Origin: a virus
Length of the DNA stretch: 23,204 nt
Direction: 5' to 3' (one strand)
IMG/VR virus record: IMGVR_UViG_3300019360_000277
Location: 1-23,204 of that record
Under the pieces are notes generated by a model that had not been told where the DNA came from, ran no database searches, and saw only the letters and a program-made list of their open reading frames with translations. The translations under genes were made by a program, and so were the position numbers. Shown here one piece after another: positions 11,720-23,204 of this stretch. Numbering within the stretch: the first letter of the stretch is position 1; each line of letters begins with the position of its first letter.

Positions 11720-12955
11720 ATGGTTGTATATCAATCAGGGAGTGTGGCGGGAGTAGTCGCTTTGCTGGGTACGCTGAAAGACTTTGCTGTGGCGCGTGGG
11801 GCGACAAATAACAATTACTCCGCGGACGGAGCCGGCCAGCGCCATCACATGAAGCTTGGCTCGGGCTTTTTCAATTTCAAAGCTCTGGTGAATGAGTCGA
11901 TTCCCAGTGGAGCGAGCGGCCTGTACGGAATTACGGCCTATGGCTCAACCGGCTACAACGGAGGAGCGGTTTGGAATGACCAGCCCGGGGGACCGAAGTA
12001 CTCGACCAACCAGTTTCCATTCGCGGGGATTCACGGGCTGGGTAATACGGGGACACCGTCACCGACTCTAAATTACCACCTGTTTTACGTGGATCGTCCC
12101 AATCAGCCGAAGGTTCTCAACGTTACCGGCGCGACCAACGCCAGCCCGATTGTGATCACCGCGAACAGGCATCGCCTGGCGACGGGCGACAGGGTTGTCA
12201 TCGCCAGCGTAGGCGGCAACACCGCGGCGAATGGAACCTGGACTATCACCCGGATCGACGCCGACACCTTTTCGCTCGACGGCTCGACGGGCAATGGCGC
12301 TTACACATCGGGCGGAACCATCACCCTTCTGAGCGAGGTTATCTACCTGGTCGTCGAATATACGTCCGGGTACTTCCAGCATCTTATGTTCGGTCAGCTT
12401 GACAGGAGCGAGAGCGGCGAGGTCGCTGGAGCCTGGTTTGTGACGGGCCAACACAAATCCAGCGAGAATAACAATCGTCACCAAACCGTCAATTTCTTCG
12501 GTTTCACGCCTCCTATATTGGGAGGCTTTGTGCCCCGTCCGGACGGCATGGTGTATGCGACCGTGGACGGAATCACGGGCTGGAAGATCAGCAGAGATGA
12601 CGGGAACAGATTCCCGGTGAACGGCAATCAATTTGCCGGTGATGGCGTTCGGAAGTTTTGCGACATCGTTAATTGCGCCCCGAACGCGATCAACAGCCAA
12701 TCGGTGGGATTGCCCATTCCCGTTTTCGTTACACGAGACGGGACAAATCAACACAATAATGCCACCCCGTGGACAATCCTGGGCTATATGCCCGAGATTT
12801 ACTACTGCAACATCAGGAACCTCGTCCCGGCGAGTCAGTACCCGATTGGCTCGACCCAGTATCGAGTCTTTCCGTTTTTCCGAAAGAGCGACGGCGCCTA
12901 TAGCCAGGTAGGCGATCACACCCAGCATCTGGGGTTCTTTATTCGGGAGAGCTGA
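11720..12955 (+). CDS. Tail-tip structural protein, paralogue 2, with FCCH-like insert
   Basis: A 411-residue protein that repeats the plan of its upstream neighbour: an N-terminal 'LLGTLKDFAVARGA' helix, a central 'GSTGYNGGAVWNDQPGG', then 'NYHLFYV' and 'EVIYLVVEYTSGYFQHLMFGQL' and a C-terminal 'WTILGYMPEIYYCN' segment. Between 'HLFYVDRP' (residue ~127) and 'SEVIYLVVEY' (~205) lies a 68-residue FCCH-like module (135-202). The neighbour has only a short loop ('ASGRR') at the matching place, so an insertion into a beta hairpin is the simplest reading. The module may decorate the tail tip. GGAG at 11708-11711 precedes the ATG. Confidence 0.6.
   Translation: MVVYQSGSVAGVVALLGTLKDFAVARGATNNNYSADGAGQRHHMKLGSGFFNFKALVNESIPSGASGLYGITAYGSTGYNGGAVWNDQPGGPKYSTNQFPFAGIHGLGNTGTPSPTLNYHLFYVDRPNQPKVLNVTGATNASPIVITANRHRLATGDRVVIASVGGNTAANGTWTITRIDADTFSLDGSTGNGAYTSGGTITLLSEVIYLVVEYTSGYFQHLMFGQLDRSESGEVAGAWFVTGQHKSSENNNRHQTVNFFGFTPPILGGFVPRPDGMVYATVDGITGWKISRDDGNRFPVNGNQFAGDGVRKFCDIVNCAPNAINSQSVGLPIPVFVTRDGTNQHNNATPWTILGYMPEIYYCNIRNLVPASQYPIGSTQYRVFPFFRKSDGAYSQVGDHTQHLGFFIRES
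12122..12325 (+). repeat. FCCH-like module, copy B
   Basis: Encodes residues 135-202 of the 411-residue tail-tip protein. It shares the three exact blocks described for copy A. The difference between copies lies in surface positions between the blocks, as expected for the same fold in two settings. Confidence 0.85.
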
Positions 12956-18036: not shown

Positions 18037-18408
18037 CTATGAGAGCTCCGCCAGATCCTTCTTCATCGCGTTCAGGTCGTCGGCCATTCTCGCGGCCCTC
18101 TTCGGATTAGCTTCAATTCTGGCGATTGAATCAACCAACTCTTTGCGAATCTGCTTCCGCCGCGCCTTGAGCTTCGTCTCCATCTGCGCGAGCATCCCTT
18201 CGGCCTCCTCAAGCCAGGGGTCATCTTTCAAGGCCTTTGAAAGCTCGAGCCATTTTAAGGCTTTGTCAAGCATCGCGGAATGCTCAGGCTCGATCTCGCC
18301 GATTTCCCAGCGTGAGATAGTGTTACCCGAAACATCCATCTCTGCGCCGAGCTGCGCCTGTGTCAGACCGAGGGCGACGCGGCGGCGTTTCAATTCTTCT
18401 GCCTTCAT
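18037..18408 (-). CDS. XRE-family transcriptional regulator
   Basis: A 123-residue protein with an XRE/lambda-repressor-type helix-turn-helix at about residues 4-55: 'RRVALGLTQAQLGAEMDVSGNTISRWEIGE' shows the classic Q..La...gvs..tiSrWE pattern. The C-terminal half (60-123) is a charged helical region ('KLKARRKQIRKELVDSIARIEAN') that probably dimerises, in place of a peptidase domain. I chose the ATG at 18406-18408, since AAAGGAG sits six bases upstream; a longer in-frame version has no such site. Gene order (behind a coiled-coil gene and two operators) suggests it is the phage repressor controlling its own operon. Confidence 0.83.
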   Translation of the reverse strand: MKAEELKRRRVALGLTQAQLGAEMDVSGNTISRWEIGEIEPEHSAMLDKALKWLELSKALKDDPWLEEAEGMLAQMETKLKARRKQIRKELVDSIARIEANPKRAARMADDLNAMKKDLAELS

Positions 18409-18463
18409 AATCGCTCCTTTATTTGCGCCCGAGGGCGGCGCGGGGTAAGATGACTTTGAAAGA

Positions 18464-18488
18464 GGGGGGCGGCGGTTGCCCACCCCCC
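18464..18488 (-). terminator. Hairpin between coiled-coil gene and repressor gene
   Basis: Read on the - strand, six G pair with six C and the stem extends with one U-G wobble and two further pairs (9 bp), loop GCAACCG, followed by TCTTTC. It may act as an attenuator lowering repressor expression relative to the upstream gene. The T tract is poor. Confidence 0.4.
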
Positions 18489-18842: not shown

Positions 18843-19694
18843 TCACTGAATTGCCAAATGGGTCGAAGATGACTCCCCTGGCCGCGCGTGGATATACTGC
18901 ATGGTGGTTTGCAGACTCCCGTGTCCGAGCGTGGCCTGAACCTTGGGAACCGATGCGCCGCGATCAAGCGCATGACTCGCATGGGCGTGACGCATCCAGT
19001 GAGGCGAGACCTTCCAACTTAGCCCGGCCCGCTTCGCCGCGGCTTTCACGATCCGCCAAGCCTGGACTCGGCCGAGTCGTTCACCTTCGCGCGAGAGGAA
19101 GAGCGGGGAATCGGCGTTGGCCCGCATCGCCTCAAGGTCCCGCCAGAGCTTTTCAGGGAGCAACACGTATCTGGTCTTTTCCCGTTTCCCAAACAGGCAG
19201 ATTTGCCCACCGTCCTCGCGCGGCTGGAGATCCCGCCAACTTGCGCCGACGATCTCCGAGACGCGGCCGCCGGTCACGTAGAGCAGGCGGATCAGGACCT
19301 GGTTGCGAGGTGCAGGCTCGAGCGCGATCAGCTTCATCAATTCTTCTTCGCTCAAAATTCGTTCTGCCAAGTCGTTCTTTATCTTCGGCAGAGGCGCCGC
19401 CTTACCGACGTCGAGCTGCAGGTGACCGGCCTTGCACGCGAAGCCGAGCAGACTTTTGACCGCCGCCATTTTTCGCCGGCGAGATCTCGGCTTATAGTCG
19501 ATTTCGAGATGGCGCGAGTAAGCAAGCACGTCGTCAAGTTGGAGATCTCCGAGCATCTTGTTTGCCCAATTTTGGAAGTCGGCCACGTCGCGCGCATAGG
19601 CCTCGCGCGTGGCGGCGCTCGCTTTCGTCTGAAGCCATAGCTCGATAATTCGCTCGTCCTCTTCGGCGGATTCCATAGATTTTTGACGTAACAT
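18843..19694 (-). CDS. Tyrosine recombinase / integrase
   Basis: A 283-residue Xer-size tyrosine recombinase. The N-terminal core-binding domain covers about residues 14-100 ('WLQTKASAATREAYARDVADF'). The catalytic domain shows Arg144 (TGGRVSE), a lysine near 170-173 (FGKREKTR), His232 and Arg235 (PHWMRHAHASHAL), His258 (LGHGS) and Tyr267 (MQYIH), so all active-site residues are present. It should insert and excise the phage, or resolve dimers if the element is a plasmid-like prophage. No Shine-Dalgarno precedes either the ATG at 19694 or the in-frame ATG at 19676; the first lies in an inverted repeat. Attachment site not recognised. Confidence 0.9.
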   Translation of the reverse strand: MLRQKSMESAEEDERIIELWLQTKASAATREAYARDVADFQNWANKMLGDLQLDDVLAYSRHLEIDYKPRSRRRKMAAVKSLLGFACKAGHLQLDVGKAAPLPKIKNDLAERILSEEELMKLIALEPAPRNQVLIRLLYVTGGRVSEIVGASWRDLQPREDGGQICLFGKREKTRYVLLPEKLWRDLEAMRANADSPLFLSREGERLGRVQAWRIVKAAAKRAGLSWKVSPHWMRHAHASHALDRGASVPKVQATLGHGSLQTTMQYIHARPGESSSTHLAIQ

Positions 19695-19801: not shown

Positions 19802-20491
19802 ATGCAGGCGTCATACTATCGCGACTCGCACATAACTCTGTACCACGCCGATTCCAACGAACTCCTGCCCGATCTTACGAGTGTCGATCTGATCATCGCC
19901 GATGTGCCGTATTCGTTCGGTCTCAATTCGACTGACGACGGCGCGTCCTGGGGCGATCTGATGAACGCCTCGCAGATCTATACGCGCTGGCTCCGCGAAT
20001 TTCAGCGTCTCACGACGGCCAGCAATGGCGCGGCCTGGGTTTTCAATAGTTGGCGTTCTTTCCCCACGCTCGCCCGCGGTGCCAACGAGGCCCGCTGGCC
20101 AATCATCTCGCTGCTCGTCTGGGACAAGGTGCGGATGGGGGCCGGCACGCTCCGTGGCCTTCGTCCGCGATACGAGCTCTGCGCCCTGTTTATGCAGGAA
20201 GGGTTCAGAATCAAGAACCGCCGCTTGACCGACATCTGGCCCGAATCCCTTCCCCACGGTAAGCCCACCGGACATAAATCCGAGAAGCCGGTAGGCCTCA
20301 TCAAAAAGATCATCGCCGAGAGCGGTGGAGATCTGATCCTCGATCCGTTCGTCGGCAGCGGGACCACGCTCGTCGCAGCCAAGCAGCTTGGCAAGCAGGC
20401 GATCGGAATCGAGATCGAAGAACGATGGTGCGAGGTCGCAGCCAGACGCGCAGAAAAGGCTGAGGTGGCTCCACTCTCGGACGGCAATTGA
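19802..20491 (+). CDS. DNA methyltransferase, beta motif order (N6-adenine or N4-cytosine)
   Basis: A 229-residue amino-methyltransferase. The catalytic motif IV comes first ('DLIIADVPYSFG', DVPY at residues 34-37), followed by a target-recognition region, then motif X ('HKSEKPVGLIKKII', 158-171) and the AdoMet-binding motif I ('DPFVGSGTT', 181-189) and 'GIEIEE'. This order is the beta class. Known members have DPPY or SPPY; here the first proline is valine. No restriction gene lies nearby, so it is solitary, perhaps protecting phage DNA or regulating. It has a near-perfect Shine-Dalgarno (AGGAGGT, 19791-19797), and a GGTAAC repeat at 19781 and 19795. A TTGACT at 19740 may be the -35 of its promoter. 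It is transcribed opposite to its neighbours. Confidence 0.87.
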   Translation: MQASYYRDSHITLYHADSNELLPDLTSVDLIIADVPYSFGLNSTDDGASWGDLMNASQIYTRWLREFQRLTTASNGAAWVFNSWRSFPTLARGANEARWPIISLLVWDKVRMGAGTLRGLRPRYELCALFMQEGFRIKNRRLTDIWPESLPHGKPTGHKSEKPVGLIKKIIAESGGDLILDPFVGSGTTLVAAKQLGKQAIGIEIEERWCEVAARRAEKAEVAPLSDGN

Positions 20492-21674: not shown

Positions 21675-21932
21675 TTATGCCGCGTCAGACTGAGTGCTCA
21701 GTTTTGCAGACTGAGTGCTCAGCGCCTCGTTAATCAGCCTCGCAAGCTGGCGGTCTTCTTCCGTCACGATTCCCTGACCGGTGCGAATGAACGAACTCAG
21801 CCAGGCCTGCCGCTCCTCGATCTCGCCGGGCCGCGGCTTGTATTCACCGTTCGCTGCCTGGGCGATCATGCTCAGGTGAGCCAGCGCGATCGCGACCTGC
21901 TCAAACGACAGCGGTTTTCTCTCTGTTTCCAT
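21675..21932 (-). CDS. Small hypothetical protein with repeat-encoded C-terminus
   Basis: An 85-residue protein starting METERKPLSFEQVAIALAHLSM, a helical body, and a C-terminus 'ALSTQSAKLSTQSDAA' that is encoded entirely by two exact copies of a 15-nt repeat (21687-21701 and 21708-21722) 21 bp apart. Thus the last ~15 residues look like an added tail, not part of the fold. A strong Shine-Dalgarno (AAGGAGAG) precedes the ATG at 21932, which overlaps the end of the preceding gene by 32 bp. No family is recognised. Confidence 0.6.
   Translation of the reverse strand: METERKPLSFEQVAIALAHLSMIAQAANGEYKPRPGEIEERQAWLSSFIRTGQGIVTEEDRQLARLINEALSTQSAKLSTQSDAA
21687..21722 (-). repeat. Tandem pair of CTGAGTGCTCAG palindrome-like repeats
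   Basis: Two identical 15-nt copies (+ strand AGACTGAGTGCTCAG) at 21687-21701 and 21708-21722, start-to-start 21 bp, two helical turns. Each contains CTGAG/CTCAG arms with a TG centre. They encode LSTQS twice at the C-terminus of the 85-residue protein. Confidence 0.9.
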
Positions 21933-22365
21933 GCTTTCTCTCCTTGCAGAGTAGCCCCGAAGCTTCGAGGCTCTTCCAGTTGAAATACCCGGCCAGCGGG
22001 TAGACTGAGTTATCGGCGGTGGTCAGATCCGGCTTCCGACTGAGTACCCGCAAATACGAAACTCCGTACTCAGTTTCGGCAATGCTGTGGCCCGGCATCC
22101 GCCGGATCAGGTAGCCCGGTTTCTTGCGGCTTCGCTTCCAATTTGCCCGGTCATAAACGATTCCCCGCTGAGCACTCAGTTGAACGACATTGTTTTTGTT
22201 TTTAATCAGTTGCTCTTTTTCCGGTGTACGCCGAGGCCTCTTGACTGAGTGCTCAGCGAGTCCAGTCAGCGAAGGTGCGGCTGAGTGCTCAGCGGGGCGG
22301 GATTTGACCGCCTCGGCTGAGTGCTCAGCCACAGAAGACTGATTGCCATTGTTCGTCTCCGCCAC
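21901..22365 (-). CDS. Basic hypothetical protein with AEHS repeats
   Basis: A 154-residue protein. The N-terminus contains three AEHS units 12 residues apart (AEHSAEAVKSRP, AEHSAAPSLTGL, AEHSVKRP...), each encoded by a copy of the 12-bp DNA repeat; a further copy in opposite orientation encodes LSAQ. Then comes a basic stretch ('YDRANWKRSRKKPGYLIRRMPGHS'), and a C-terminal half with 'YLRVLSRKPDL' and 'YFNWKSLEASGLL'. A nucleic-acid-binding role is plausible from the charge only. The start is a GTG at 22365 in the repeat zone with no good Shine-Dalgarno, so the true start could lie further in, perhaps downstream of the repeats. Function unknown. Confidence 0.55.
   Translation of the reverse strand: MAETNNGNQSSVAEHSAEAVKSRPAEHSAAPSLTGLAEHSVKRPRRTPEKEQLIKNKNNVVQLSAQRGIVYDRANWKRSRKKPGYLIRRMPGHSIAETEYGVSYLRVLSRKPDLTTADNSVYPLAGYFNWKSLEASGLLCKERKHGNREKTAVV
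22039..22074. repeat. 9-bp inverted repeat made from half-sites of the CTGAGTGCTCAG family
   Basis: ACTGAGTAC at 22039-22047 and its exact reverse complement GTACTCAGT at 22066-22074, with an 18-nt loop. Both arms carry the ACTGAGT half-site of the repeats. An additional half-site AGACTGAGT lies at 22002-22010. All are inside the coding sequence of the basic protein. Confidence 0.7.
22168..22180 (+). repeat. CTGAGTGCTCAG-family repeat, inverted orientation
   Basis: CTGAGCACTCAG at 22168-22179 on the + strand, the reverse complement of the other copies, followed by T. It encodes LSAQ in the basic protein, a third reading of the same motif. Confidence 0.9.
22245..22328 (-). repeat. Three CTGAGTGCTCAG repeats spaced 36 bp
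   Basis: Exact 12-bp copies at 22245-22256, 22281-22292 and 22317-22328, so two 36-bp steps. Outer flanks extend the arms: GCTGAG/CTCAGC at 22281 (6 bp) and GGCTGAG/CTCAGCC at 22317 (7 bp). They encode the AEHS units of the basic protein. Confidence 0.92.
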
Positions 22366-22403
22366 TGAGTTAGAGACGGCCTCAGACTGAGTGCTCAGTG
22401 GCG
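22360..22403. repeat. Seventh CTGAGTGCTCAG repeat in a larger inverted repeat, at the gene junction
   Basis: CTGAGTGCTCAG at 22387-22398, with ACTGAG/CTCAGT arms. It is part of a 10-bp inverted repeat (CGCCACTGAG at 22360-22369 with CTCAGTGGCG at 22394-22403, 24-nt loop). The element provides the TGA stop of the membrane protein gene and the GTG start region of the next gene. Confidence 0.85.
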
Positions 22404-23204
22404 CCAGGCTTTTCCCGATGCGGTGTCCGGGAATTCCGATCGACTCTCCAACTTCACTCGTCCCAGGACGGCCAGTATCTGCGCTTTCACTTCGGGATCG
22501 GCGATCGAATTTATGGCTTCCTCCCCGCGTTGCTTCACCTGGGCGAGCTGCTCGACGGTCTTGACGTATTCCTCCTCCATAAGCACCTGTTCCTGAAAGA
22601 ACCCAAGACGCGCCCTCTCAATTTCCATCTGGTTTGCGAGTTCGACCTTTTCGGTGAGCAGGGACGCGCGGCTGCGCTCAGATTCCACCACGGCCTTGGC
22701 TCGATCCTCACTGATTCTGGTTGACCAGTGGGTGTAGTAGAGGACGCAGACGCCGGCGAGCATCATCGAGAAGATCAGCGGGAACGCCACAAAGTAGGAA
22801 TAGACCCATAACGGGCGGCCGATGCTCTTCCCCGCGCCGCTGATCTCATAGAGCGAAGCGCAGGCGTGTATGAACGAGATGGTCGTGAAGGAGATGGCGA
22901 AAAAGCGGAGGGCTATCCGATGCGCGCAGGCGCTCTTCGTCTGCTTGTTCCAGCAGTAGATGGCGAAGGCTTCGCTGAGGATCGCGACGCAGGCCACAGC
23001 GACGCCCCACGCGCCCGGGATGGTGATATGGAACAGGCGCCAGTTGAGAGCGCCGAGGACGGTGTAGACGGCGTATTTGACGACGGACAGAAATCCGCCC
23101 GTGCCGGCCAGATCGAAATCCGCCGCTTCGTTCTGCGCCGTGGTGGCGCGCTTCTCTTTTTGCTGGGAGTCTCTTATTGCATGGCCAAAACGGAAGATTT
23201 TCAT
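22395..23204 (-). CDS. Four-helix membrane protein with cytoplasmic coiled coil
   Basis: A 269-residue protein whose first codon (ATG) is the last codon of the window on the - strand, so the true start may lie here or beyond it. Predicted membrane helices at about residues 38-58, 64-84, 97-118 and 131-157, then a charged coiled-coil region (about 163-232: 'STRISEDRAKAVVESERSRAS', 'LMEEEYVKTVEQLAQV') and a short C-terminus. The N-terminal 37 residues are polar. Such a 4TM plus coil layout could anchor a complex at the membrane. No family is recognised. It is the first visible gene of the leftward block, and its stop codon is supplied by a repeat element. Confidence 0.6.
   Translation of the reverse strand: MKIFRFGHAIRDSQQKEKRATTAQNEAADFDLAGTGGFLSVVKYAVYTVLGALNWRLFHITIPGAWGVAVACVAILSEAFAIYCWNKQTKSACAHRIALRFFAISFTTISFIHACASLYEISGAGKSIGRPLWVYSYFVAFPLIFSMMLAGVCVLYYTHWSTRISEDRAKAVVESERSRASLLTEKVELANQMEIERARLGFFQEQVLMEEEYVKTVEQLAQVKQRGEEAINSIADPEVKAQILAVLGRVKLESRSEFPDTASGKAWRH

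Follow-up and report, generated by a model that had tools for sequence, protein, structure and literature searches.

ParABS partition loci carry clustered palindromic sites, and gene O of phage lambda carries the origin iterons within its coding sequence. Salmonella phage BTP1 harbors aba, a 63-bp DNA element that overlaps the start of bstA and whose repeats are essential (PMC8585504). Of the lambda pair RexA/RexB, RexA has been described as binding DNA non-specifically (PMC11077077).

In the window, i.e., the whole 23.2-kb stretch of virus DNA analysed here (23,204 nucleotides), seven exact copies of the 12-bp near-palindrome CTGAGTGCTCAG span positions 21690-22398, and none lies elsewhere. 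When up to two mismatches were allowed, we counted 15 strand-matches versus a shuffle mean of 1.97, and none of 100 shuffles reached 15. A direct sequence check confirmed the array as it had been described in the original prediction: all seven copies are present at the listed coordinates with the one at 22168 inverted, the spacings of 21, 36, 36 and 70 bp are correct, and so are the reading frames AEHS, LSTQ and LSAQ and the stop codon formed by one copy. That copy, at 22387, provides the TGA stop of a membrane-protein gene (22395-23204); of the others, four are situated in the 5' half of a gene that we call B and two in the 3' end of a gene that we call A. Half-sites and degenerate sites at 22005-22016, 22040-22045, 22062-22073 and 22364-22370 had been missed. 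The features of the locus are as follows.

22395..23204, minus strand: upstream membrane-protein gene; 269 aa with a charged tail and three to four hydrophobic segments; 45% identical to its counterpart in L010.
21901..22365, minus strand: gene B; 154 aa, basic C-terminal domain with pI ~10; candidate site-binding protein.
21675..21932, minus strand: gene A; 85 aa, acidic, predicted three-helix protein; overlaps the end of B.
21690..21701, plus strand: palindromic site copy 1; gene A 3' end, frame LSTQ.
21711..21722, plus strand: palindromic site copy 2; gene A 3' end, frame LSTQ.
22168..22179, minus strand: palindromic site copy 3; gene B, LSAQ; CTGAGTGCTCAGCGGGG at this place in L011 and CTGAACACTCAGCGGGG in L012.
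22245..22256, plus strand: palindromic site copy 4; gene B, frame AEHS.
22281..22292, plus strand: palindromic site copy 5; gene B, frame AEHS.
22317..22328, plus strand: palindromic site copy 6; gene B, frame AEHS.
22387..22398, plus strand: palindromic site copy 7; TGA stop of the upstream membrane-protein gene.
22364..22370, plus strand: extra half-site ACTGAGT between copies 6 and 7.
22062..22073, minus strand: degenerate site CTGAGTACGGAG; conserved domain of gene B.
22040..22045, minus strand: half-site ACTCAG preceded by GT; conserved domain of gene B; GTA codon in 6/6 phages, CTC in 5/5.
22005..22016, minus strand: degenerate site CCGATAACTCAG; conserved domain of gene B; TCA codon in 6/6 phages.

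On the minus strand, the membrane-protein gene is followed by B, A and the gene of an ASCH-like protein. The structure model of B (mean pLDDT 63.5) has a low-confidence, probably disordered N-terminus, the DNA of which holds sites, and a basic C-terminal domain predicted to be mostly beta; the C-terminal tail of A is encoded by two array sites. The pI ranges from 9.8 to 10.2 for the B domain and from 4.7 to 6.7 for A. Pfam, PHROGs, NCBIfam and PADLOC yielded no significant match to either B or A, and fold searches with both returned nothing significant; in three phages B matched phrog_2046 weakly, at ~16 bits or less, and these matches were given no weight. Among annotated phages and plasmids, B had no meaningful match, and a megablast search with the window among annotated phages found none. 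Homologs of B were found neither by peptide pattern in the genome collection nor in the 396, 400 and 398 sampled genomes of three phyla, although a host may still be among these genomes; a match to B with an E-value of 7.6e-4 in the genome samples was attributed to chance. A scan for sigma-70-type promoters between 20500 and 23204 and an Rfam search each returned none. The record stops exactly at the start codon of the membrane-protein gene (23204), so the promoter of the module, if any, lies outside the window.

Several other features of the window were recorded. The protein encoded downstream of A at 21151-21663 matches phrog_3193 (5e-26) and, weakly, an ASCH domain. A gene for an N6/N4 DNA methyltransferase (19802-20491; Pfam N6_N4_Mtase, 3.1e-27) lies near B and A on the opposite strand, and methylase-like genes adjoin the module in contigs G001 and G002 too. 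A tyrosine integrase (18843-19694) and an HTH_3-type regulator (18037-18483) are consistent with a temperate phage. One sequence module (VTGATNASPIVIT...VGGNTAANG.W...STGNGAYTSGG) is found twice, at ~2120-2330 and 12120-12335, in the predicted proteins of two distinct ORFs (1961-2596 and 11720-12955).

Homologs of B and A were found in five further IMG/VR phage contigs, each with an array at the same place, so that all six phages with B carry one. In the four relatives that were scanned whole (contigs of 38-74 kb; core YR, at most one mismatch), the copies were confined to one locus apart from two strays with one mismatch, in G001 (50740) and G002 (4664). With any core allowed, zero to four one-mismatch words and no exact ones were found outside the locus of each contig. 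The 32 better sites define the two-fold symmetric consensus RCTGAGNNCTCAGY, with the central pair occurring in both orientations. The contig of L020 holds a variant with four CTGAGTACTCAG sites, three of them within a perfect 18-bp palindrome, AGACTGAGTACTCAGTCT. The third frame, which contains TGA, is used at gene ends, namely for the stop of the membrane-protein gene in the window and for that of A in L014. The membrane proteins of these loci are very divergent, and related integrases are present in five contigs.

The claim that selection acts on DNA rather than on protein was borne out. In the coding regions of B and A of the six phages we observed 20 sites, in two reading frames, versus 0.18 expected when synonymous codons of both genes were redrawn from each phage's own usage; therefore, selection acts on the DNA. 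Within the conserved B domain, the three lowest p-values of any synonymous column belonged to V GTA (6/6, p=0.002), S TCA (6/6, p=0.0007) and L CTC (5/5, p=0.005), all of which fall in half-sites (GTACTCAG and AACTCAG), a test that is partly circular because the half-sites were first spotted in the window and these same relatives.

In the L010 lineage, this place is taken by another palindrome. The membrane-protein gene of L010 is 45-48% identical to that of the window and is followed by a gene that encodes a basic, 191-aa protein and is itself full of TGTGCCACTAGTGGCACA and its half-sites. In L010 and a 60-kb relative, near-exact copies of this 18-bp palindrome occur only downstream of the homologous membrane-protein gene; in the 60-kb relative, five copies of the core palindrome were counted with up to three mismatches, four at the locus and a fifth, with two mismatches, ~1 kb upstream. 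A 12-bp insertion distinguishes L010 from this relative and adds one half-site. Profile comparisons detected no homology between B and the B-like protein of L010 or between A and the small ORF that follows the B-like gene. The parallel with the window is an architectural one, and because homology of B was undetected, synteny, basic charge and architecture are the grounds for regarding the two as one system with different sites. In L085 the membrane-protein gene is present without B or array, and it may therefore be a mere neighbour of the module.

There is good support for viewing the array as a cluster of binding sites that works at the DNA level and is tied to B and A; its DNA probably serves a protein made from these genes as a landing pad. 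We lean, with some reserve, towards an intragenic cluster of dimeric binding sites for the module's own basic protein B. B is the putative binder because its domain is basic, A is acidic and the arrays follow B, and binding as a dimer is suggested by the symmetry of the sites; A or a host protein could bind instead of B. According to this working model, the RCTGAGNNCTCAGY sites in the B and A genes would constitute a cis-acting cluster of two-fold-symmetric protein-binding sites, on which a dimer of B would assemble with the viral DNA into a nucleoprotein complex. More speculatively, this complex may regulate the module from inside the operon or, alternatively, may tag the DNA of the phage as its cognate element for self-recognition, comparable to aba in the case of bstA, in which case the membrane protein would be a partner. 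Autoregulation, aba-like self-recognition and tethering are the candidate roles of the array. From the original list of meanings, an operator or other nucleoprotein site is retained, while a replication origin, a ParA-type partition site and a mobile repeat are disfavoured. A bolder proposal, to which we give little credence at present, is a phage module of a new class: its small basic protein and a symmetric DNA word within that protein's gene would diverge in step and give each lineage a private DNA address, separating its own genome from competitors and read via a fast-diverging membrane protein. At the least, two unnamed protein families are linked to a lineage-specific palindromic array inside their own genes. 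If B reads the array, the differing palindromes offer a natural series on the co-change of a DNA-binding domain and its site, and on whether intragenic arrays are self-recognition marks in temperate phages.

An unlikely alternative is a prophage exclusion system in which the array would be the cognate mark of self-immunity, in the manner of bstA and aba. The sites form an intragenic, repeat-bearing and lineage-specific DNA element in phages that bear integrases, and this element may confer self-immunity; aba is likewise DNA-based, overlaps the bstA start, depends on its repeats and is homolog-specific (PMC8585504). In addition, a divergent membrane protein beside a DNA-binding candidate recalls RexA/RexB (PMC11077077); family searches with B, A and the membrane proteins yielded no hit. 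However, no PADLOC entry matched any of these proteins to a relevant degree, and a KilA-N domain was not found in B (none in Pfam at E-values up to 1).

We consider it quite unlikely that the array works like a centromere in partition or tethers the DNA to the membrane, with B binding the centromere and the membrane protein acting as its anchor. The single locus, the palindromic sites and the gene of a hydrophobic protein directly upstream in 7/7 loci would fit such a role, but the membrane proteins are very divergent and a ParA-type ATPase (PF13614) scored above the cut-off in 0/7 records, some of which may be incomplete. The integrases shared by five contigs also speak against it, as a plasmid prophage is not required.

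It is improbable that the copies are iterons of a replication origin inside an initiator gene, in the style of lambda O. This reading would account for multi-copy sites where the gene of a small basic protein is poorly conserved and for the replication-like genes that lie close to the module on the L010, L020 and L008 contigs, yet G003, G005 and G006 each hold a separate initiator-like gene, named by sequence resemblance, with its own tandem iterons of 23-24 bp, which makes a main origin at the array unlikely. Instead of tandem iterons with an AT-rich flank as in lambda-type origins, the array is irregular and has no AT-rich stretch beside it, and a GC-skew check gave no consistent switch at the array. 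Tandem repeats of 23-24 bp in initiator-like genes, resembling the lambda origin, were noted in L010 (2156-2276), L020 (4556-4627) and G003.

Very improbable, in our view, are RNA hairpins in the B/A mRNA that would act in antitermination or translational control: some copies fold well (-12.1, -8.5 and -10.9 kcal/mol), but others fold like shuffles, the conserved GTACTCAG half-site does not fold, and the core is found in either orientation (two of each in G003).

Although the same word recurs in several frames in near-identical copies, a mobile palindromic repeat or a host-genome repeat that spread into the phage can practically be dismissed, because the cousin L010 holds a different palindrome at the same place, and also in view of copies that are restricted to one locus per contig rather than dispersed and of 38 bacterial loci with paired 12-mers that contain neither B nor A.

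Bacterial genomes provided further observations. The Prevotellaceae MAGs RUG733 and RUG483 hold many paired, hairpin-like CTGAGCGCTCAG words on many contigs (loci L021, L024, L027, L031, L036, L037, L039, L042, L045, L048, L049, L052, L054 and L055), and two Moorena loci (L025 and L053) have tandem repeats with CTGAGTGCTCAG or close variants. The suggested kinship to CACTCAG-type tracts encoding HSALSTQ-like tails found no support, as the two Acidobacteria loci that were read turned out to be head-to-tail heptads at unrelated places. The 12-mer also turns up in two papers, neither of which concerns phages judging by title and abstract.

Compared with known systems, the array resembles bacterial tandem heptads such as (TCCTGAG)n in its CTGAGTGCTCAG words and LSAQ-like peptides, but such heptads run head-to-tail at unrelated loci without B or A. 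As in ParABS loci of phages and plasmids, palindromic sites are clustered at one locus beside the gene of a candidate binding protein; unlike there, they lie inside genes and are accompanied by no ParA-type ATPase above the cut-off. Like the origin iterons in lambda gene O, multi-copy symmetric sites reside inside the coding sequence of the putative binder, whereas their spacing is irregular, no AT-rich region is present and three phages keep iterons separately in initiator-like genes. With lambda RexA/RexB, the module shares a membrane-protein gene beside the gene of a putative DNA-binding protein in temperate phages, and it differs in having a site array, RexA being a non-specific binder (PMC11077077). 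Finally, although several symmetric sites are spread over ~700 bp rather than contained in a 63-bp element and B is without a detectable KilA-N domain, the locus has in common with bstA/aba a repeat-bearing DNA element that is located in the phage's own gene, may be homolog-specific and belongs to temperate phages (PMC8585504).
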